Virus record (IMG/VR): IMGVR_UViG_3300009104_000034
Location: 1-45,965 of that record
Origin: a virus
Reading direction: 5' to 3' (one strand)
DNA length: 45,965 nt
The position numbers were made by a program, and so were the translations under genes. Every line of letters starts with the position of its first letter. Within the stretch, counting starts at the first letter, position 1. This document shows positions 1 to 42,738 of the stretch, piece after piece. Under the pieces are notes generated by a model. That model was not told where the DNA came from and made no database searches. It saw nothing but the letters and a program-made list of their open reading frames with translations.

Positions 1-126
1 GGACATGATATTGAATTAACTTACTTTGGAGCAAAAGGTAAACTTGAGAACGCAGTAAATGCTGCAATCGTTTGTAATACTTGTTATGAAGTGTTATTTA
101 ATTATGATAAGGAGGAATCAAAATGA
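1..126 (+). CDS. C-terminal end of an unknown protein (partial)
   Basis: The window opens inside this gene; 41 codons remain before TGA. The remnant contains a single CxxC pair (CNTC), so the protein may be another zinc-binding protein like several neighbours, but two cysteines alone do not prove that. Its stop overlaps the ATG of the AAA+ ATPase gene by ATGA, and a GGAGG ribosome site (111-115) lies in its last codons, so the two are probably co-transcribed and translationally coupled. Function unknown. Confidence 0.6.
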   Translation, partial: GHDIELTYFGAKGKLENAVNAAIVCNTCYEVLFNYDKEESK

Positions 127-1049
127 ACAAAGAAACAAAATTTATGAATAGAATGGATTCAGAAACCATTCCAAATAGAATACCAACAGCTGAAATTGCT
201 TTTGAAGAATATGATCCAAAAAACATAGATGTTTGGGACGAGTATGTTCCAATGAGAGATGAGGACGTTAGATTAACTAAAGCAATTTTAAGTGCACAGT
301 ACCCATATCTAATTGAATCTGAAAAAGGTCAAGGAAAAACACTTCTTGTACATACTATATGTAAAAGAGAGGAAATTGCCTTAGTAGAAGAACCTATTGG
401 TGTTGGAACTAAAAAAACTGATCTAATAGGTACAAAGGAAATAAACAGAGATGGTACAATATTCAATCTTGGTTTATTGCCAAGAGCAATAGAGGTTGCA
501 AACCATTATGGTCATGCTGTTTTGTATGGTGATGAAGGAAATGCACAAGATCATGAGATACAAAGATATTGGAATAGAATATGTGATGGAAGAAAATCCA
601 TTGTTGCAAATGGTAAAACATACAAGCTAAAAGAAGGTTGTAAACTTGCAATAATTTGGACTATAAACCCAGTAACATATGCAGGTATAAACACAATGAC
701 GGAAGATCTACGATCAAGATTCACTGGAAGTGTTTGGTCATATCCTACTGAGGATGATTTCAAGCGAGTGGTTAATTGGGGAGATCTTTCTCCAGATTTG
801 GTTATACAACCAATGTTAACACTGATACAAGATATTTACTCTTTAAGAGTAAAAGGAGAGGTTGAGTATGCTCTTTCGGTAAGAGATATTGCACAGTTTT
901 GTGATTATTTAAAACAAGCAATAGTCGATGAAGTAAAATCACCTATTGAAAATGCACTATCAGAAGTAGTATTAATAAAATATGGTGAACCCACTGAAAG
1001 AGAATTGATCAGAATACGAATTAATGACACATTTGGGGTGAACATATGA
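123..1049 (+). CDS. MoxR/CobS-type AAA+ ATPase
   Basis: A 308-residue AAA+ ATPase of the MoxR/dynein-midasin type. Visible motifs: Walker A ESEKGQGKT (residues 65-73), Walker B HAVLYGDEGN (131-140), sensor 1 IIWTINP (175-181) and an arginine-finger-like LRSRF (196-200). MoxR ATPases usually act with a von Willebrand A (VWA) protein, remodelling or loading metal into a target; such a VWA gene lies two genes downstream, with only a zinc-finger gene between. The start is fixed by GGAGG 8 nt upstream and an ATGA overlap. A specific cobalt-chelatase role should not be read into the CobS resemblance, since no cobalamin genes are nearby. Target unknown. Confidence 0.85.
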   Translation: MNKETKFMNRMDSETIPNRIPTAEIAFEEYDPKNIDVWDEYVPMRDEDVRLTKAILSAQYPYLIESEKGQGKTLLVHTICKREEIALVEEPIGVGTKKTDLIGTKEINRDGTIFNLGLLPRAIEVANHYGHAVLYGDEGNAQDHEIQRYWNRICDGRKSIVANGKTYKLKEGCKLAIIWTINPVTYAGINTMTEDLRSRFTGSVWSYPTEDDFKRVVNWGDLSPDLVIQPMLTLIQDIYSLRVKGEVEYALSVRDIAQFCDYLKQAIVDEVKSPIENALSEVVLIKYGEPTERELIRIRINDTFGVNI

Positions 1050-1423
1050 TAGGTAATGTGAAGGGAGGACGTACAAAGAAAGACAATCTAGAAAGATGTA
1101 TTAATTGTAACCAAACAATGAGGGCACCATACAAAGGTGGGGGTAAAATGTATTGCAATAGAGTATGTCTTGATCAATATAGGAACAAAAATGGGTATTG
1201 GCAAACATGGTATCAGAAAAAACCTGAAGTAATAGCAAGGCAGAAAAAACTATGTAATGTGTGCAAACGAAATATAAAAGAGGTTGGTGAAAGAAAACAG
1301 TCTAATAAATACTGTTCAAACAGATGTATGCTGATAGCACAAGGAATTAGAGATAGTGGGCAAACATATGTTGAGGTTAAAATGACATTACCACAATATA
1401 GGAGATATATGAAAAATGCCTAG
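1046..1423 (+). CDS. Zinc-finger protein with two tandem CxxC...CxxxC modules
   Basis: A basic 125-residue protein with two similar zinc-binding units: CINC followed about 16 residues later by CNRVC, and CNVC followed by CSNRC. The duplication suggests two treble-clef or MYND-like fingers binding nucleic acid or protein. It overlaps the upstream ATPase (ATGA) and the downstream VWA gene (8 nt), so it sits inside a tightly coupled MoxR/zinc-finger/VWA cassette and may be an adaptor for the ATPase. That role is inference from position; I do not recognise the family. Confidence 0.75.
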   Translation: MIGNVKGGRTKKDNLERCINCNQTMRAPYKGGGKMYCNRVCLDQYRNKNGYWQTWYQKKPEVIARQKKLCNVCKRNIKEVGERKQSNKYCSNRCMLIAQGIRDSGQTYVEVKMTLPQYRRYMKNA

Positions 1424-3092
1424 AAGAAACGTAGATGTATTGACTGAAAGAGAGTTGTTTGAAAAAACAGCTAGGCTCGTTGAACATGCACAAACCTGTA
1501 AAATAAAATTAGCATACCAAGATTCTGGATCAAACTATGCAAAATATATGGGACGTGACAAGTTGTCTGGATTGAAGAAGGTATATTATGTATGTATAGC
1601 ACAACCACCTGTAAAAGGAATAGCAAAATATACTGCATTAATTCATGAACTTGCTCATATATTGTACGATACCCCATTTAGTGGTATAAAAAATCTACTA
1701 GATCCCAAAACATCAATAATGGGTGGTACTAGATTCAAGGATCATAAACTAGCATTTAATGTTTGGAATATACTTGAAGATCAAAGAATAGAGTCACATC
1801 TTATGAGATGGTATCTTGCATATAGAAAAAGATTTATGAAAACAAGAGAGGGATTAGGAAAAAGTATGAAGTCTGATTGTGATATAAACAACCCCCTGTT
1901 TACAATAATGTCTTTAAGGTTTCAACGAGATGATTATGCGAAAAAAGGAAAGTATTATGAAGAAATTAAAGATGCATTAGAAAATGTTGAACACACTGAC
2001 AAGTTTGGTGCATTACGAATACTGATAACTCTAAGTGATGTGTTAAATGAATATTCAGAAAATGTCAAAGACACAATACTTGGTAGTAAAAAATACACAG
2101 AAAGTGCTTCTACTGAAGCCAGTGGAGAGTCTGAACAAAAAGAGCTTCTTGAAGAACTTCCAGCAGATGTAAGGACATATCTTAATGAATTTGGTTCAAA
2201 AATAGACAAAGATTCTTTAATAGAATCTGGTAAAATTGAAGGTGAGAAACAATTTCTTGATGTTAAAGGAAAAATGTTGGGTGATGGGAGTGGGGCAGTT
2301 GATAATACACCACCTAATGTTAAGATAATAGAGAGAGTGTCTGATAAAGTTTCACCTAATATGGAAATTGCCCACGCATTAAATAAATTATTTAAGCGTG
2401 TAAAAATGCTAAATAAACCACATATATCTACTGAGGGTGATGATGTTGATGTAGAAGAATATGTAGAGAGATATATTAATGGTTTAAAACTAAACGAGTG
2501 CCTAATGGGTGTAACGAAATCAAATGGTGCATCAATAGTTGTCTCAATAGATGGCTCTACATCAATGAGGTTTGATAGAATAGATACGGCAAGAAATCTT
2601 GTAGCAACTCTTTACAAATCTGTGGAGGGGTTAAAAGGAGTCGAAATACGAGGTAATATATGGTCTAGTAATGGTAATGGTGAAATAGGAATTACTGAGA
2701 TAAACAACGAAAAAGACGTGAAAAATATAACAGTACATGATAAGTATCCATGCACACCAACTCATATGGGACTTGATTACTCTGCTAAAATGCTAAAAGA
2801 GATGAAGGGAAACAAAAAGTTTCTTTTTCTCATAACTGATGGTGCGCCTAACTACTATAATGATGGTAAGCGTATACAAAGAAACAACTATCTAAAGATG
2901 TGTAAGAGATCTCTTAAAAAAGTTCTAAAACTTACACCAAATGTTGTATGTATATTAGTTAATTCTAACCCATATCATAGGTACGACTTAAGAGTGCTCT
3001 TTACGAAGAAAAGGGTTCTTGTGTTTAGAAACATGGAACGAGCATCCGAAAAGGTTATAAAACAATTTAAAGGAGTTATTATGAGCCGATAG
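1416..3092 (+). CDS. Metallopeptidase-like/VWA protein (DUF2201-like), MoxR partner
   Basis: A 558-residue protein. The N-terminal part carries HELAH (residues 77-81), as in the putative metallopeptidase domain of DUF2201-type proteins. The middle is acidic and probably a linker. The C-terminal part is a VWA domain with an intact MIDAS motif DGSTS (379-383) and a later TDG (474-476) after a hydrophobic strand. The MoxR plus VWA pair is a known chelatase-like arrangement in which the ATPase works on the VWA partner. It overlaps the zinc-finger gene by 8 nt and the next gene by 1 nt. Whether HELAH is catalytic is unknown; the second zinc ligand is not evident. Confidence 0.8.
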   Translation: MPRRNVDVLTERELFEKTARLVEHAQTCKIKLAYQDSGSNYAKYMGRDKLSGLKKVYYVCIAQPPVKGIAKYTALIHELAHILYDTPFSGIKNLLDPKTSIMGGTRFKDHKLAFNVWNILEDQRIESHLMRWYLAYRKRFMKTREGLGKSMKSDCDINNPLFTIMSLRFQRDDYAKKGKYYEEIKDALENVEHTDKFGALRILITLSDVLNEYSENVKDTILGSKKYTESASTEASGESEQKELLEELPADVRTYLNEFGSKIDKDSLIESGKIEGEKQFLDVKGKMLGDGSGAVDNTPPNVKIIERVSDKVSPNMEIAHALNKLFKRVKMLNKPHISTEGDDVDVEEYVERYINGLKLNECLMGVTKSNGASIVVSIDGSTSMRFDRIDTARNLVATLYKSVEGLKGVEIRGNIWSSNGNGEIGITEINNEKDVKNITVHDKYPCTPTHMGLDYSAKMLKEMKGNKKFLFLITDGAPNYYNDGKRIQRNNYLKMCKRSLKKVLKLTPNVVCILVNSNPYHRYDLRVLFTKKRVLVFRNMERASEKVIKQFKGVIMSR

Positions 3093-6406: not shown

Positions 6407-6725
6407 TTCTACTTTCTTTTGCTACATTAATAAGCCTTTTGAAATTATCAGGTGAAAACATTTTAAGACGTTCAACTGATGTATGGTGTTTTTTACAAAG
6501 TAGTGCAAATCTATTTGGATCTTTTCTTATAATGGGTAAAACATATTCGTTATATGCATATGTATCAGAGAAATCAGAGTATATTTTGTCACTATTTAGG
6601 TATCTTTTATGATGAAAAACAAACCATTTACCATACTTTCTATGACATACTGCACATTTTAAATCAAACTGTGGCATTGCAGCCACATCTCTCTTCATTT
6701 TGTCAACTATGTCTTTTTTACTCAT
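6294..6725 (-). CDS. HNH endonuclease-like protein
   Basis: A 143-residue protein with CAVC, then FHHKRY and later FALLCKKHH, the zinc and metal ligands of an HNH (beta-beta-alpha metal) nuclease. The last 35 residues are extremely basic (RRGNKRKVRGRRR) and probably bind DNA; they lie in the long overlap with the next gene. It begins 4 nt inside the RadA stop, so it is in the replication operon. Plausible roles are homing, recombination or packaging-associated cutting; which one cannot be told from sequence. Confidence 0.65.
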   Translation of the reverse strand: MSKKDIVDKMKRDVAAMPQFDLKCAVCHRKYGKWFVFHHKRYLNSDKIYSDFSDTYAYNEYVLPIIRKDPNRFALLCKKHHTSVERLKMFSPDNFKRLINVAKESRNDGRFRTKRRGNKRKVRGRRRAKCSKNTKKHIRRNRV

Positions 6726-7771
6726 TCTACATTTACTAAGCCTTTATCCGTTAATATATATTCGGCATCAGCTTGTGCATGTTCTGGGCTATCAATCATT
6801 CTTGCAAGTCTTTTCTTACCAGATTTTTTGAAATATAGTCTATATGTTGAAGCATGTGCGACAACATTACCTCCTATTGGTTTTATTGGATCACCAAACA
6901 TCATGCTTGGATCAGATTGAACTTGGTTTGTAAAAACCACTGGACATCTAAAATAAAATGATATGTTCTTAATATGTGTCATTAGCCTTGCTATCTGCAT
7001 TTGTCTTTCAGCTAAGGTGCCTCTACCAAGATACTCTTCTCTAAATTGACCTATTGCACCATCAAGTATAACCAGTTTTGGTTTCTTTTCTAATAGTAGT
7101 TTTGATAATCCATTTATTGTACCTAACAACTGTTCAGTGTTTGGTGTATAGAGGTAAGTAATTTGATCTAGTTTACTCTTTGCTTCTTCTTCGGTAATCT
7201 CATTTCTTGCTACTAACATTTGAATTAATCTTCTTGGTTTAAAAGTATCTTCACAATCTATCCAAACAACATTACCATCATTTGAAATAGCTTCACATGC
7301 TAATGTGTTACAAAATTGGGTTTTTCCAGATCCAAACTCTCCATATATTTCATATGTTGCTTCAGGCTTTACACCACCACCCATTAGAGCATCAAGTTCA
7401 TCACACTTTGTTCCAAGAGTTGGTAGTTGATCATGATAATCCAATAATTCTGACACATCCATATCAGATTTTCTAATTAGATTGTTATCTTCAAGTATTT
7501 TCTGAGCTTTAAACACCCAAGAATCACAAGTTGGTTTTGCAACACTTGTTATCTCTGATACTTCTCTTGATCCCCTAACACAAATATCTATAATGTTGGA
7601 AACACCAAATGTTTCTAATTTTTTCTGAGTAACTGCACCTACTCCTTCTAACTGTGATACTGATAGATCTAAGTCGTCAATAGGTGGATAACCATCCTTC
7701 CTTTCAATTTCATCTTCATCTTCAACTTTCTTTTTTACCATTTTATCATCAAATTCGCTTATAAGTTCCAT
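6722..7771 (-). CDS. radA: RadA/Rad51-family recombinase
   Basis: A 349-residue archaeal-type recombinase: helix-hairpin-helix domain around residues 37-65, Walker A GEFGSGKT (144-151), Walker B LVILD (233-237) and a conserved EEYLGRGTLAERQ segment (246-258). It forms filaments on single-stranded DNA and drives strand exchange for viral recombination and repair. The residue after the Walker B Asp is Gly (DG) where cellular RadA has Ser, a mild divergence. The ATG lies 23 nt inside the end of the MCM gene, so the two are co-transcribed; an ATG ten codons later is an alternative start. Confidence 0.92.
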   Translation of the reverse strand: MELISEFDDKMVKKKVEDEDEIERKDGYPPIDDLDLSVSQLEGVGAVTQKKLETFGVSNIIDICVRGSREVSEITSVAKPTCDSWVFKAQKILEDNNLIRKSDMDVSELLDYHDQLPTLGTKCDELDALMGGGVKPEATYEIYGEFGSGKTQFCNTLACEAISNDGNVVWIDCEDTFKPRRLIQMLVARNEITEEEAKSKLDQITYLYTPNTEQLLGTINGLSKLLLEKKPKLVILDGAIGQFREEYLGRGTLAERQMQIARLMTHIKNISFYFRCPVVFTNQVQSDPSMMFGDPIKPIGGNVVAHASTYRLYFKKSGKKRLARMIDSPEHAQADAEYILTDKGLVNVE

Positions 7772-9701
7772 CTATGTTCAACTTTATAACATTATTATTT
7801 TCCCAACGATCTATTAAACGTTTTGTTTGTTCATCATCCATACCTGCTTTCATTAATGTCTCTTGAAATGTTTTAATCTTTACATTACCATCTGAATTTT
7901 TACATATATTCCACAACTCAACTAAGTTATGTTCTTTTGTTGACTTTTTATCAAAATAAATCTGTTCTTGAATTGATTGTCCATCTAATGATTGACCAAA
8001 TCCTTTATACATTGTAATTATTAATTTCTCTATTTCCTCTATGTCCTCAACATCAACGGTTTCTTTTAGTTTTAGTTTTGCGTATGCCATTGAAAGTCTT
8101 ACTAAGGCTTCAAGCTGTCTTATACCAACAGGCATTTGTGACTTTGCACTAGCAGTTCTCATCTTCTCGTATATTTTAAGAAGTTTTGATTTTGATTCAT
8201 CTAAAAGTTTTGGTTCAAGTTTCCTTGCATAATTAAGAAATGCCATTAACTGTGTCTCTGACATATATGCTGAGTCTTTACTATCTGTAAAAGAATTTAA
8301 AATATGTGTTGCTTTTGCCATGTCTTCTGTAACATGAACCCTGTCTTTAATTAACCAAATCATATCAAAACGTGATAAAAGTGGTGCAGGCACATCTATG
8401 TTATCTCTTAATGTACTATCTGGATCATACACACCATATTTTGGATTCGCAGCTGCTAATATTGCTGTTCTAGTTGGTAATGTCATTTGAATACCTGCTT
8501 TTGCTATACTAACTGTTTGTTGTTCCATAGCTTCATGCATTGAACTTCTATCATCTTTGTTCATTTTATCAAACTCATCAATAAACGCAAAACCATTATT
8601 ACAAATTGGTAACACGCCAGCTTGTGCAACAAATCTACCATCAGGCATTTTTACCATACCAATTGTCAATCCAGCTGCACTTGATCCTCTTCCACTTGTG
8701 TAAATAGATCTCTGTGTTATGGACTTTGCAAATTTTAATAGTTCAGATTTTGCCATTGATGGATCACCAACTAACAGTGTATTAATATCTCCTCTTTTTT
8801 TGGTTTTAACACCACCTACTAACTCCAAAAGAATGGCTAATTTAATATCACGGTAGCCATATATGTTTGGGGCAAATGACCCAACTAACCCATCAATAAA
8901 ATCACCATCTTTAGAATCAGATTCCAACTGTTTTAATTCTTCTGCTGATGGTTCAATTGGTTTTTGTTCTTCCAAATCATCAAGGCACAATATGTCAATA
9001 AATACATCATTTTCATTATTTTTAACATCTATAATACTTCTAAATAAACCTGTAATTTGTTTTCTTTGACCTACAAAAGATGTCCTAATATTCTCACCAA
9101 CTAACTTACCTGTTAAAATAACAGGGGAGTTGTTTTTAGAATCTTCCATAAACTCTTGCATTAGAATTGTTTGCACATCATCAGTGACAACTGACAGTGG
9201 GTCAACTTCTGTTTTTGCCTTTCTACACTGTGTATTATTACAAAAAGGAACTTGTATTTTTCTATCAATATTTGATTCAACACGGTAGTCTCTGTTACAA
9301 ATAGGACACAAAAATACGGCTTCTTTTATGAATGTTTTTGGTGAATCAATTGCTATAATTTGACAGTTAAATGTTATTGTTGTGTTTTCATACTTAGATG
9401 AAATACTATGCATGTTAGTTATTTTTTCTGAAACCAACTTAATTTTTAATCTTTTATATGCCGATTCAATTAATGGTAGCTTTTCTCTACCTCTTTTATC
9501 TGCAATCACCATGTAAATACATGTTTTAAGTAGATCTAAAAAGTTCTTAGGACTTTCTAAATAAAAATCTAAAAATGGCTGTGTTGATGGATTAAAACAA
9601 AATGTAGAATCTGGTCTTAAACCATCAATCACATCTGTGTATTTTGGGTGTGAGAGAGCTTGGTGTATTATGTCTCTTTGTGCAGAAAGTGAATAACTCA
9701 A
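7749..9701 (-). CDS. mcm: MCM replicative helicase
   Basis: A 650-residue minichromosome maintenance helicase that unwinds DNA ahead of the fork. The N-terminal domain carries a zinc-binding loop (CPIC at 132-135, partners at 154 and 159). The AAA+ core has MCM-type Walker A GDPSMAKS (312-319), Walker B FAFIDE (371-376), sensor 1 Asn 419 and arginine finger SRFD (443-446). The last 65 residues look like the usual winged helix. Full-length relative to archaeal MCMs, so likely active on its own. The start overlaps the RHH-like gene by ATGA. Confidence 0.95.
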   Translation of the reverse strand: MSYSLSAQRDIIHQALSHPKYTDVIDGLRPDSTFCFNPSTQPFLDFYLESPKNFLDLLKTCIYMVIADKRGREKLPLIESAYKRLKIKLVSEKITNMHSISSKYENTTITFNCQIIAIDSPKTFIKEAVFLCPICNRDYRVESNIDRKIQVPFCNNTQCRKAKTEVDPLSVVTDDVQTILMQEFMEDSKNNSPVILTGKLVGENIRTSFVGQRKQITGLFRSIIDVKNNENDVFIDILCLDDLEEQKPIEPSAEELKQLESDSKDGDFIDGLVGSFAPNIYGYRDIKLAILLELVGGVKTKKRGDINTLLVGDPSMAKSELLKFAKSITQRSIYTSGRGSSAAGLTIGMVKMPDGRFVAQAGVLPICNNGFAFIDEFDKMNKDDRSSMHEAMEQQTVSIAKAGIQMTLPTRTAILAAANPKYGVYDPDSTLRDNIDVPAPLLSRFDMIWLIKDRVHVTEDMAKATHILNSFTDSKDSAYMSETQLMAFLNYARKLEPKLLDESKSKLLKIYEKMRTASAKSQMPVGIRQLEALVRLSMAYAKLKLKETVDVEDIEEIEKLIITMYKGFGQSLDGQSIQEQIYFDKKSTKEHNLVELWNICKNSDGNVKIKTFQETLMKAGMDDEQTKRLIDRWENNNVIKLNIDGTYKRI

Positions 9702-38524: not shown

Positions 38525-39354
38525 TTTATCGTCACATTCTCAACTACTGAACTGCTTTGATTCCAATCAGTGTTTGTAGATGTTAACGCAGATATTTTGA
38601 AATCATACACTTTTTCACTTGATGTCCAACTATCATCAAGATCAAGAGTTAGAGACTGATCTGTTGCAGTTGTGGCACTTGCACTATATGTTATATCATT
38701 TGCATCTAAACGACTCCATCCAGAAGCAGTTGATTTTTTATATTTTACTGCATAGCCTGTTATTCCAGTTGCGTTACCAAATGACTCTGTAATAATATTA
38801 GGAACTGATGCTTTATGACCACTTCCACTGTCATCTTGAATTACTAAAAGAACCTGTGATGAGCTTCTTACTGGTGGTGATGCAAGTGTTGGATCAATTG
38901 AAGCTGCTACATTTCCATGTATAAATTGTAAATTACCCTCCCAAACAACTGGTGAAGATGCACTCAAACTAAATGACATTCTCATTAAAGTTCCTTGTAA
39001 TACTAAATTATTTGCAATTGTTAAAACATAACTATCTGCAACAGTAATTGGTACAAATTGTGTTTTAAAGAACTCAATTATGTCTATTGCTGATGTTGGG
39101 CTTGATGCCAAAGTACCTGACTCTGCAACAAATGGACAAGTCTCTAAATCCCTAATCTTCCACGCTATATTAGATGTTGTTGTGTTTCCCTCAACCTTAA
39201 TAAGAACATTCTCAGTATCTGCCTGCTGTGGTAAAGGCATTGGTGCCAAAGGAGTACTAAAATCTACTGATAATGTGTTTATGTTATCTGCATCATATCT
39301 TGTAACTGCACCTGTATCATCGTCAGTTTTTTTAAGAGAAAAAGGAACTACCAT
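38521..39354 (-). CDS. Distal tail-like protein with fibronectin-like C-terminus
   Basis: About 277 residues, beta-rich. The C-terminal 90 residues (TGYAVKYKKSTASGW ... YDFKISALTST) look like a fibronectin type III domain. First gene after the tape measure, the usual place of the distal tail protein. I choose ATG 39354 because it overlaps the tape-measure stop (TAATG) and follows GGAGG; a GTG at 39366 is possible. Confidence 0.6.
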   Translation of the reverse strand: MVVPFSLKKTDDDTGAVTRYDADNINTLSVDFSTPLAPMPLPQQADTENVLIKVEGNTTTSNIAWKIRDLETCPFVAESGTLASSPTSAIDIIEFFKTQFVPITVADSYVLTIANNLVLQGTLMRMSFSLSASSPVVWEGNLQFIHGNVAASIDPTLASPPVRSSSQVLLVIQDDSGSGHKASVPNIITESFGNATGITGYAVKYKKSTASGWSRLDANDITYSASATTATDQSLTLDLDDSWTSSEKVYDFKISALTSTNTDWNQSSSVVENVTIN

Positions 39355-41132
39355 TATCCTCCCCACCTTCCTTTCTTATTCTTATGAAGGGCTTCACTTG
39401 TAGCATTAGTTAATTCATTAACATCAACTGATGTTGCTACCATTCCAATATTTTGATTGAAAATTGTTGTATCTCCAGATGAAACCTGAGTCATTGATTC
39501 ACTAATTCCACCACTAACAGGTTGATTACCTACAGCAGTTTGACCTAAATTCCAAATATCTTCTGCCATTGATGTTTCTGGTACAAGGAACCCACCGACA
39601 TCTTCGCCAAGTGTTCCTATAGCACCCTCTCTTAAAGCATCATATGCATCAGGGTTTACTGCTTTAACAACTGACAATCCTACTTCAGCTGCTAATAGTG
39701 CCCAACCTGCAATTGGTATTGCTTTTGTTCCAAATCGTGCACCCCACTTTGCTACCTTTGCCAACTTATCTGCAGGTATTTTTCCTTGTAAGCCAGCTAA
39801 ATTTGCTTTAAATCTTCCTCTAAAATTCTTTTTGTTTTTTTGTTTTTCAATATCTTCATAATCTTGCAATGATGTTTTGGTCGTTTTTGTCGTTTTGGTT
39901 TTTTGTGTTGTTGTTTTATCACCTCTCCCTGTCGCCTTATCAAATATTTTTTTACCCATATACGCAGTAGAGCCTACACCCAATACCCCACCAGCAGCTA
40001 TACCTGCACCTGCAAGTCCAATTTGACCTTCAATTGGTTTATCAGGCTCTTGACCACTAAGACTTTTGAAAACATAATCAAGTACGTCCCATGGTGATAT
40101 TTTTTCTCCCAAAGCAAATATTGCACCCAATATGTCCCCCTTTACTAATTTTTCACCAATTTCAGTTCCCAACTGTGCTAATAACGGATATGCTTCTCTA
40201 AAGAATGGCATCACTGTTGAAAGAAGTAACATTGCTATTGGTCTTAAAATGAAACCTATAAAGTCACCAAATGGTCTTAAAACTAAATTAAATGATAAGT
40301 TCATAAGTTCTAACATTTTTTGTAACATTGGTGATACACTTAATAATTTTTTAAATGCACCAACAAGTAAACCAATACTAAATGCACTTATTATTATACC
40401 ATTTTTATGTTCACCTAAGAACTGTGCTAACCCTTCAAATTTACTTGCCATCTTTTTAATGGTTGGGTTTTCTAATATTTGACCAGCTGGTGATTCTGTC
40501 AAGTTTACCAATTCTTTTCTCAAACCTTTAAGTGACTCATTCATCATTTTAATCTCTTCTTCTTGTGCATGCCATGCTTCTTTTTTATCAGCACTCCAAC
40601 CCTCATCAAACTTTGGTAACTTTTCTTGTTTTTCTTCGAGGCTGTGAATCAAAGAGTTTATATCTCTTTCAGTTTGACCTTTCTGTTGCTGTGTTTGAAG
40701 AACTTTGGTGAATACACCAAATCCCATTCCCATGCCCTGTCGTGCACCAATACCACCCAACATGCCAGTCACCCTGTTTACACTTATAGTCATTCCCTCT
40801 AATGAGTGTCTCAGCTTAATGTTTCTCTGTACACCTTCTTGATGTTCTTGTTCTAATCTTGATTTATTTCTTCTACGAAGGTTTGATAATCCTTCTTCTA
40901 ATTTTATTGCCTCTCTTTTTATTTTTAATTCTCTTAAATCTTGTATTTCTCTCAAATCTGCATTTTTCTGGGCTAATTGTGTTTTTTTATTCCAAATCTC
41001 AAGAGTGGTTGCCATTTTAAGCATTCCTTTAGTTTCTTTCATATATGCATGATCTAGCTTTTCCATGCGCTTTTCAAGCCTTTTTATCATTTCTATTATT
41101 TCCTTTGTTAGGAAATTTGCATCGTCAGCCAT
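39354..41132 (-). CDS. Tail tape measure protein
   Basis: A 592-residue protein: long charged coiled coil (residues about 8-110 and 150-220), a hydrophobic middle with several membrane-like segments (GIIISAFSIGLLVGAF; FIGFILRPIAMLLLS), a Gly/Ala-rich stretch and a soluble end. This is the standard build of tape measure proteins, which set tail length and help DNA cross the membrane. By the usual 0.15 nm per residue rule the tail would be about 90 nm. A weak TATA-like CTTTAAGTAG precedes it. Confidence 0.85.
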   Translation of the reverse strand: MADDANFLTKEIIEMIKRLEKRMEKLDHAYMKETKGMLKMATTLEIWNKKTQLAQKNADLREIQDLRELKIKREAIKLEEGLSNLRRRNKSRLEQEHQEGVQRNIKLRHSLEGMTISVNRVTGMLGGIGARQGMGMGFGVFTKVLQTQQQKGQTERDINSLIHSLEEKQEKLPKFDEGWSADKKEAWHAQEEEIKMMNESLKGLRKELVNLTESPAGQILENPTIKKMASKFEGLAQFLGEHKNGIIISAFSIGLLVGAFKKLLSVSPMLQKMLELMNLSFNLVLRPFGDFIGFILRPIAMLLLSTVMPFFREAYPLLAQLGTEIGEKLVKGDILGAIFALGEKISPWDVLDYVFKSLSGQEPDKPIEGQIGLAGAGIAAGGVLGVGSTAYMGKKIFDKATGRGDKTTTQKTKTTKTTKTSLQDYEDIEKQKNKKNFRGRFKANLAGLQGKIPADKLAKVAKWGARFGTKAIPIAGWALLAAEVGLSVVKAVNPDAYDALREGAIGTLGEDVGGFLVPETSMAEDIWNLGQTAVGNQPVSGGISESMTQVSSGDTTIFNQNIGMVATSVDVNELTNATSEALHKNKKGRWGG

Positions 41133-41153: not shown

Positions 41154-41674
41154 CTACTTAAAGTTTTTCCTAAAACTTCGTCCAGTAGGAGGCATCGTTT
41201 TTTTAACCTCAGCCTCTTCCATAGTATTTTTATGTGTGATGAGCAATTTTTTAAGATATTCTATTGGTTGTGAATCAACGGTCTTTTTATCCCATCCAAA
41301 CTCTCTTGCGCAAAAATAATATATTAAATATCTTGATTCTTCAGATCCTCTAAGCTCTGGAATGTCTCCATCCAGTCCTCGATATAATCTGCTAAAGGGT
41401 GGTATCTCAGCACCTCTCTGAGTATGGCTTGAACTACTTTTGAGTCCAAAAGTTTTATAGTTACCACATCATTTATCTTAAATGGTGCTTTTTTAATTAC
41501 TTTAACTAGTAAGTTTATTCTATAAATCTGTAAATCAATTTTAGGTCTTGTAACATCTGATAAGTCAACTGCCTCGCCTACCAGTTCTTCAACATCACCA
41601 AAAGTTAAAGAGTCCTCAAATGCAACTTCTTCATCTTTACCATTATATGTAATTTTCACTTGTTGAAGTGCCAT
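41154..41674 (-). CDS. Tail assembly chaperone, frameshifted long form (gpG-T type)
   Basis: A predicted 173-residue product made by a -1 ribosomal frameshift. The first 94 codons are those of the short chaperone; at C CCT TTA (41399-41393) ribosomes would slip back one base and read 79 codons in the new frame to TAG at 41154. The shifted frame has no start codon of its own in its first part and encodes a protein-like sequence (SEESRYLIYYFCAREFGW). Position just before the tape measure is the classic place for gpG/gpGT of long-tailed phages, which hold the tape measure during tail assembly. Not experimentally shown here. Confidence 0.8.
41324..41674 (-). CDS. Tail assembly chaperone, short form (gpG type)
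   Basis: A 116-residue protein between the tail tube and tape measure genes. It begins with a small beta domain (VKITYNGKDEEVAFED), then helices with many acidic residues. It ends after 22 zero-frame residues beyond the slippery heptamer. Its job would be to coat the tape measure with the long form. It has its own TATA promoter (41691-41703). Confidence 0.75.
   Translation of the reverse strand: MALQQVKITYNGKDEEVAFEDSLTFGDVEELVGEAVDLSDVTRPKIDLQIYRINLLVKVIKKAPFKINDVVTIKLLDSKVVQAILREVLRYHPLADYIEDWMETFQSLEDLKNQDI
41393..41399 (-). other. Slippery heptamer C CCT TTA for -1 frameshifting
   Basis: Exact X XXY YYZ heptanucleotide (XXX = CCC, YYY = TTT, Z = A) in the zero reading frame of the short chaperone, at codons CCT-TTA. 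Slippage by -1 enters a frame open to 41154. No downstream pseudoknot or hairpin was worked out. Confidence 0.75.
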
Positions 41675-41706: not shown

Positions 41707-42738
41707 TTATGTCTCTTGTGTTATTTTTGCTGCTATTGCCTTAAATGGCAAATCTTGGAAAACTACTTCAACAGGCTCTAAACCTGTTACACTGTGTTCA
41801 TCAAATGATAATCCAGTCAATTCTATTGTTAGTATTTGATCTGCATCTTGTGGGTTTGTAAATGTTAAACTTGCTGCAACTGTTGGTGTTGAACTATCTT
41901 CATCAATACCACCTTTTGCAGTTAAAGCTGTTGCATCTGCTGCCTGATCTAATAGGTGTTGTAGTAATGTTATATCTTTAAATGTACATTGGAATCTTCC
42001 AGTTATATCTAAGACTTTTCTAAATGCTCCAGTTGCGTGGTGTGAGCCTATCTTATACAATAAATCTGAGTTCTGGTTAAAGTTAATATCTACTGATTGA
42101 ACTTCACCAACAGGTTGTAGTGATGATCCATTAGATACTTTTAACACTCCATGTGCAAATGTAAATGGCACAGCACTTGAATGAATTTTTGTTTGGGCTG
42201 TCAAAGTTCCACCTGCGTGAGTGGTTGTTGCAGCAACTTCTTTTCCAAATGTAATATCTGCTGTTGCGTTTAATGGTTCTCCTATACTTGTTGATAACCC
42301 TATACTGTTAACAATTCCACCAAGTAATTTTCTTGTCATTAATACTTTTGAATTTTGATTATCTGCTGTTTGTAATTGAATTTGAGTTGTTATTGATCTT
42401 GCTGAAACTGGTGCTTGATCTTCACCCAATGTTGGTGGGTACGTAAAAGGTGCTGAACTGTCTACACCATATAATGTGGCAAATATCTCATGAGATGTTC
42501 TTGTGTCCATAACGAAACCAATTCCCAATCTTCCCTGTTGTTGACCATATGCATATGCTGTTGGCTCTACTTGACCTAAAGTGTTGAAATCTATTCTATT
42601 TGTGGTTAAGGATAATGATGTTACTCTTGTATTTAGTCCAAATGTTTTATCTGCAGTTACTGCTGTACCATATGCAGTTGCACCCTCTAATCCATAATGA
42701 ACCGATGCACCTGCGCCTGTATAAACTTCTGTTACCAT
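41707..42738 (-). CDS. Major tail tube protein
   Basis: A 343-residue beta-rich protein of the long tail-tube type. It has alternating strand segments (TRVTSLSLTTNRIDF; GRLGIGFVMDTRTSHEI; ILTIELTGLSFDEHSV) and lies between tail completion and tape-measure genes. No sheath gene follows, so the tail is probably non-contractile. A TATA box (42761-42770) before ATG 42738 gives this abundant protein its own promoter. Confidence 0.8.
   Translation of the reverse strand: MVTEVYTGAGASVHYGLEGATAYGTAVTADKTFGLNTRVTSLSLTTNRIDFNTLGQVEPTAYAYGQQQGRLGIGFVMDTRTSHEIFATLYGVDSSAPFTYPPTLGEDQAPVSARSITTQIQLQTADNQNSKVLMTRKLLGGIVNSIGLSTSIGEPLNATADITFGKEVAATTTHAGGTLTAQTKIHSSAVPFTFAHGVLKVSNGSSLQPVGEVQSVDINFNQNSDLLYKIGSHHATGAFRKVLDITGRFQCTFKDITLLQHLLDQAADATALTAKGGIDEDSSTPTVAASLTFTNPQDADQILTIELTGLSFDEHSVTGLEPVEVVFQDLPFKAIAAKITQET

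Follow-up and report, generated by a model that had tools for sequence, protein, structure and literature searches.

Between the genes of the tail tube protein and of a putative tape measure protein, the virus analysed here very probably encodes a G and G-T pair of tail assembly chaperones, the longer of which would arise by programmed −1 frameshifting at the heptamer CCCTTTA. The window, that is, the whole stretch of 45,965 nt under analysis, comes from IMG/VR record IMGVR_UViG_3300009104_000034, and all coordinates are window positions unless another contig is named. The heptamer, its register, a T frame that is both open and selected, and the conservation of a purine tract just upstream are read directly from the sequences. 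The locus has the following parts:

41707..42738, minus strand: tail tube protein, upstream neighbour (PF18906 Phage_tube_2, E 4e-13; phrog_290)
41324..41674, minus strand: zero-frame gene G (tail assembly chaperone, as assigned below), an open frame of 116 aa with ATG at 41674 and stop at 41324
41393..41399, minus strand: slippery heptamer C CCT TTA (−1), seen in the sequence and in 80/80 G homologues
41154..41399, minus strand: T domain in the −1 frame, spanning 81 codons counted from the heptamer, with its TAG stop at 41156-41154
39354..41132, minus strand: putative tape measure protein of 592 aa, downstream neighbour, named from position and size only

The sequence-only reading had placed CCCTTTA at 41399-41393 as an X XXY YYZ heptamer in zero-frame register, and the codons there are indeed CCT (41398-41396) and TTA (41395-41393). 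It had further described the −1 frame as open to 41154 and devoid of a usable start upstream; the last T-frame stop lies about 70 nt before the heptamer, and no ATG, GTG or TTG occurs in between. The T frame of the window encodes PFSRLYRGLDGDIPELRGSEESRYLIYYFCAREFGWDKKTVDSQPIEYLKKLL..., and the predicted G-T fusion, composed of G residues 1-94 and 79 aa of T, reproduces the 173 residues given earlier. The two overlapping frames thus occupy the setting known for G/GT chaperones, flanked by a tail tube gene and a tape measure gene, the latter assigned by position: the 592-aa downstream neighbour is without a profile match in Pfam and PHROG, and in a related module (L085) the gene occupying the tape-measure place matches tape-measure profiles. 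In the contigs L031, L034 and L044 and their relatives, the zero-frame G runs about 46 codons beyond the slip site, giving a G/T overlap of about 140 nt in which both frames are conserved.

Heptamers of the X XXY YYZ type are common enough that one genome is only suggestive: the window holds 97 of them in register among 13,978 codons (0.007 per codon), and about 0.3 would be expected by chance in the G/T overlap. Among the listed window genes, CCCTTTA in register occurs at this site only. IMG/VR was searched with the zero-frame protein alone, with a G profile and, separately, with a T profile, the G profile carrying no information on T. All 80 loci recovered by the G profile, which represent 61 distinct proteins with identities to the window down to 37%, have CCCTTTA in register, and a T frame of 70-95 codons follows in 79 of the 80; the remaining contig stops at the heptamer. 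Homologues lacking the heptamer or interrupted in the −1 frame, on whose absence the sequence-only reading had staked its claim, were thus not met with by the G profile, the contig that ends at the site apart. None of the 61 distinct G homologues has a start codon in the T frame ahead of the heptamer. Among the T-profile loci, 77/80 show CCCTTT[A/C] and the other 3 show CCCAAAA, in the same register and close to the beginning of the T frame. By these sequence comparisons, the heptamer in the relatives cannot be due to chance.

The nucleotides themselves appear to be what is kept. In the DNA alignment of 37 sequences, the sole run of seven invariant columns is the heptamer. In 37/37 sequences its proline is encoded by CCT (background 39%) and, again in 37/37, its leucine by TTA (background 48%). 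The codon immediately before it is CAC (34), TAC (17) or TTC (10) in the 61 distinct sequences and never ends in T, so that the residue varies (His, Tyr, Phe) and the third base is always C, against a background of 10-19% for C-ending codons of those residues in the same genes. These codon counts come from related sequences and not from independent events; read in that way, the alignment indicates that the heptamer is under selection at the nucleotide level.

The T frame behaves as a protein-coding frame beyond the end of G. Its median pN/pS, measured downstream of the G stop in sequences that are related and hence not independent events, is 0.51 in frame compared to 1.01 and 1.12 when the two alternative frames are read, from which T is judged to be under purifying protein selection. 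A frame that lacks its own start and is nonetheless selected as protein is what G/GT chaperones present. Two sets of relatives need to be distinguished for the identification of T: clade A, which comprises the archaeal-type relatives of the window, and clade B, a second and bacterial-type set (contigs L065-L084). The T of the window alone matches the tail assembly chaperone family phrog_9001 weakly (E 0.087), that of clade B significantly (E 3e-5), and the T profile of the window's family is homologous to clade B T (hhalign probability 98%, E 1e-14). The earlier description of T as a plausible chaperone domain is borne out through this link and through the fold of G.

The AlphaFold2 model of G (pLDDT 91) matches predicted tail assembly chaperones, with probability 1.00, among them those of Bacillus phages (E 3e-4 and 8e-4) and that of Haloarcula hispanica tailed virus 2 (E 0.011); no good match was obtained in a comparison with PDB structures. 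The T model (pLDDT 77) gave a single near-significant match in the fold search, to an uncharacterised archaeal virus protein. By direct comparison, the window G and T have no significant match in Pfam and PHROG, the phage collection yields no convincing match for either, and the alignments of both are without a significant match among PDB sequences. Profile and predicted fold taken together, the assignment of G/T as tail assembly chaperones is supported, and with it, along with the conserved heptamer and T frame, the gpG/gpGT interpretation of the sequence-only reading. In BFVD, the G and T models match two separate uncharacterised proteins, A0A1S5Y368 and A0A1S5Y388; both records are from uncultured archaeal virus and bear close accession numbers, and the two may perhaps constitute an unrecognised G/T pair.

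Three other explanations of the two frames have been considered. That they result from a sequencing or assembly error, or from degradation of a single gene, draws on the fact that a single-base change could fuse them. The same offset is found at the same base in 61 distinct homologues on many separate contigs, however, and T is under purifying selection; the explanation, whose sequencing-error version the sequence-only reading had itself raised as a danger, is refuted by these independent relatives and has a probability close to nil. Translation of T alone from an internal start in the −1 frame, with no frameshifting involved, would find a candidate in the TTG that many relatives have in the T frame 24 nt past the heptamer, near a GAGG. 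The window has CTG and not TTG at that position, initiation there would remove the conserved beginning of T, a start upstream of the heptamer is missing from each of the 61 distinct homologues (61/61), and the codon-level conservation of the heptamer would be left unexplained, all of which makes independent translation of T very unlikely. A comparably small probability is given to the heptamer being a by-product of coding in overlapping frames, as opposed to a slip site. The zero-frame Pro-Leu is invariant, and CCCTTT[A/G] would be the only spelling if Pro-Phe were required in the −1 frame. Ribosomes that slip at the heptamer, though, never produce the −1 Pro-Phe, and no selection on it is expected for that reason; moreover, the preceding codon holds its third-base C as the amino acid changes, the CCCTTTC of clade B specifies a zero-frame Pro-Phe, and CCCAAAA stands close to the beginning of the T frame at three loci of clade B type. 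Programmed −1 frameshifting at the heptamer is the interpretation followed from here on.

The less expected part of the signal, absent from the sequence-only reading, is a Shine-Dalgarno (SD)-like element ahead of the slip site:

41411..41419, minus strand: SD-like tract AGAGAGGTG (core GAGGTG at 41416-41411), 11 nt before the heptamer

In the relatives, the purine tract reads AAGGAGGT, AGGGAGAT, GAGGGGGT and others, at a spacing of 11-12 nt to the heptamer, and at the tract position 61/61 distinct G homologues have one of the cores GGAG, GAGG and GGGG. With the usual 16S rRNA 3' end, AUCACCUCCU, assumed as the anti-SD of the host, the mean duplex energy in the G genes of clade A reaches its minimum at position −19 relative to the heptamer (−8.4 kcal/mol; gene mean −0.4). 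SD-like sequences also precede the starts of several other genes of this virus. It could be argued that the tract does no more than encode a Lys/Arg-Glu-Val/Ile motif, in which case frameshifting would stand without this stimulator; the motif is conserved in most members, and one divergent relative, L063, has a weak tract only. The codon usage speaks against it. The tract glutamate is GAG (31) in all, or in all but one, of the Glu-bearing members, whereas the genome prefers GAA (647 GAA vs 230 GAG), and the purine core survives the replacement of Glu by Gly in the relatives L050, L054, L056 and L058. Synonymous recoding of the same amino acids, furthermore, loses the anti-SD match with z = −14, a value that ignores shared ancestry, compared to z between −1.4 and +2.8 for 23 control segments of the G gene. 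Coding alone is thus considered rather unlikely, if clearly less remote than the alternatives to frameshifting discussed above. On this sequence evidence, the tract is kept at the nucleotide level beyond what the amino acids need, and by analogy to dnaX it probably promotes slippage.

Slippage, its frequency, the stimulator role of the tract and the chaperone action of the products are what we infer from the sequences, and the mechanism envisaged is as follows. The majority of ribosomes would translate G to its stop at 41324. Being complementary to the 3' end of the 16S rRNA, the purine tract 11-12 nt upstream would probably keep the ribosome at the slip site, where a fraction of the ribosomes, with Pro-tRNA on CCU and Leu-tRNA on UUA, would slip back by one base to CCC UUU, enter T and produce the 173-aa G-T fusion. 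In analogy to phage lambda, G is expected to coat the tape measure protein and T to recruit the protein of the tail tube. A structural element downstream of the heptamer has also been considered:

41357..41375, minus strand: hairpin that may form past the heptamer, CTGGATG-GAGA-CATTCCAG (window fold z = −3)

In the window alone the hairpin is stable, but two base pairs of the stem are lost in 23/36 relatives and covariation is almost absent, so that a role as conserved stimulator finds no support. An alternative register showed no covariation among the relatives, and RNAalifold gave nothing convincing downstream of the heptamer. The mean fold z in clade A is −1.7 downstream vs −0.25 upstream, and some local downstream structure is possible.

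The gene content of the window, which includes a large terminase gene, bears on the type of ribosome that would carry out the frameshift:

7749..9701, minus strand: MCM helicase (PF00493, E 3e-76)
6722..7771, minus strand: RadA recombinase (PF08423, E 1e-53; NCBIfam RadA NF003301 above cut-off)
123-1049, plus strand: AAA ATPase, in a CobS/CobT-like arrangement with a VWA-domain protein
1416-3092, plus strand: VWA-domain protein, following the AAA ATPase in that CobS/CobT-like arrangement

With MCM and RadA identified by profile, the archaeal replication genes reported in the sequence-only reading are confirmed. The MCM matches in the phage collection are to archaeal viruses in 16/16 records, and MCM and RadA occur together in 5/5 related long records (38.7-64.6 kb). 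Gene content accordingly points to an archaeal host, which we infer from sequence; a search of genome contigs for the host found no provirus or relative. The radA and ATPase genes are typical of Marthaviruses, viruses of marine and Lake Baikal ammonia-oxidising archaea, for which CobS has been described as well (PMC7678222). The window resembles them in its RadA gene and in its AAA ATPase gene, with that of a VWA-domain protein after it, a resemblance by published gene content only. Since RadA and such ATPases are typical of Marthaviruses, an ammonia-oxidising archaeon is a plausible host for the present virus.

Regarding known systems, Xu, Hendrix and Duda in 2004 reportedly described the gpG/gpGT −1 frameshift in phage lambda and other dsDNA phages (cited in PMC7911831). 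The present locus shares with lambda the order of tail tube, G, T and tape measure position, the short T in the −1 frame, the X XXY YYZ sequence near the end of G and the lack of a separate T start; it differs in the heptamer (GGGAAAG in lambda, CCCTTTA here), in its strongly conserved SD-like tract and in the archaeal replication genes of the virus. In E. coli dnaX, an internal SD located some 10 nt ahead of A AAA AAG stimulates −1 frameshifting. The SD-like element of the present locus, at a distance of about 11 nt to the slip site, is comparable, whereas the downstream hairpin of dnaX has no supported counterpart here. For archaeal tailed viruses, −1 frameshifts have been predicted in the tail chaperone genes of HVTV-1, HCTV-1, -2, -5 and Hardycor1, with GGGAAAC, AAAAAAC, GGGAAAG and GGGAAAT given as the sites of HCTV-1, HCTV-2, HCTV-5 and Hardycor1, respectively (PMC5009743, PMC8211752, PMC7911831). 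The suggestion of the sequence-only reading that the gpG/gpGT logic extends to an archaeal virus is thus supported, but the archaeal −1 frameshift as such had already been predicted for haloviruses and is not new. The haloarchaeal sites given all have A in the A-site codon, different from the CCCTTTA of the AT-rich family considered here. The literature searched gave CCCUUUA as a frameshift site for Giardiavirus only (PMC8230311); the heptamer is identical, yet Giardiavirus is an RNA virus of a eukaryote in which the anti-SD has no role.

What is probably new, the G/GT system being known, is that an unusual heptamer is combined with a probable SD-type stimulator and that this combination is fixed in a whole virus family. 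We consider it somewhat more probable than its contrary that this is a family of archaeal tailed viruses with a fixed SD-like tract and CCCUUUA, whose archaeal hosts' ribosomes frameshift by an SD-stimulated route. If true, a route so far known from bacteria (E. coli) would operate in archaea, at a heptamer unreported there. Experimental −1 frameshifting in archaea has mainly concerned a single cellular gene, that of the Sulfolobus alpha-fucosidase (PMC8211752, PMC8037382). The archaeal viral frameshifts are predictions, for which the family of the window provides a much stronger comparative case, and the heptamer together with the candidate SD-type stimulator is short enough for reporter testing. 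The T half of such tail chaperones is missed by annotation based on open reading frames.

Clade B shows that CCCTTTA is not specific to archaeal viruses, for it shares the heptamer. Its slip sites are CCCTTTA or CCCTTTC (e.g., L079:4920-4926), in most cases with a −1 stop (TAG) immediately before the slip site, and they have no SD-like tract; of the two clades compared, the tract is seen in the archaeal-type clade only. Homology between clade A G and clade B G is not detectable. The example examined, L085, combines a tail tube protein of the same Pfam family with an unrelated G and a homologous T, and carries genes typical of bacterial phages, among them those of a PAPS reductase and a ParB-like methyltransferase. 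Three T homologues (L160, L161 and L162) have CCCAAAA 93 bases before the start of the T match at position 3001, and the distribution of the sites suggests that CCCAAAA and CCCTTT[A/C] interchange within the bacterial-type clade.
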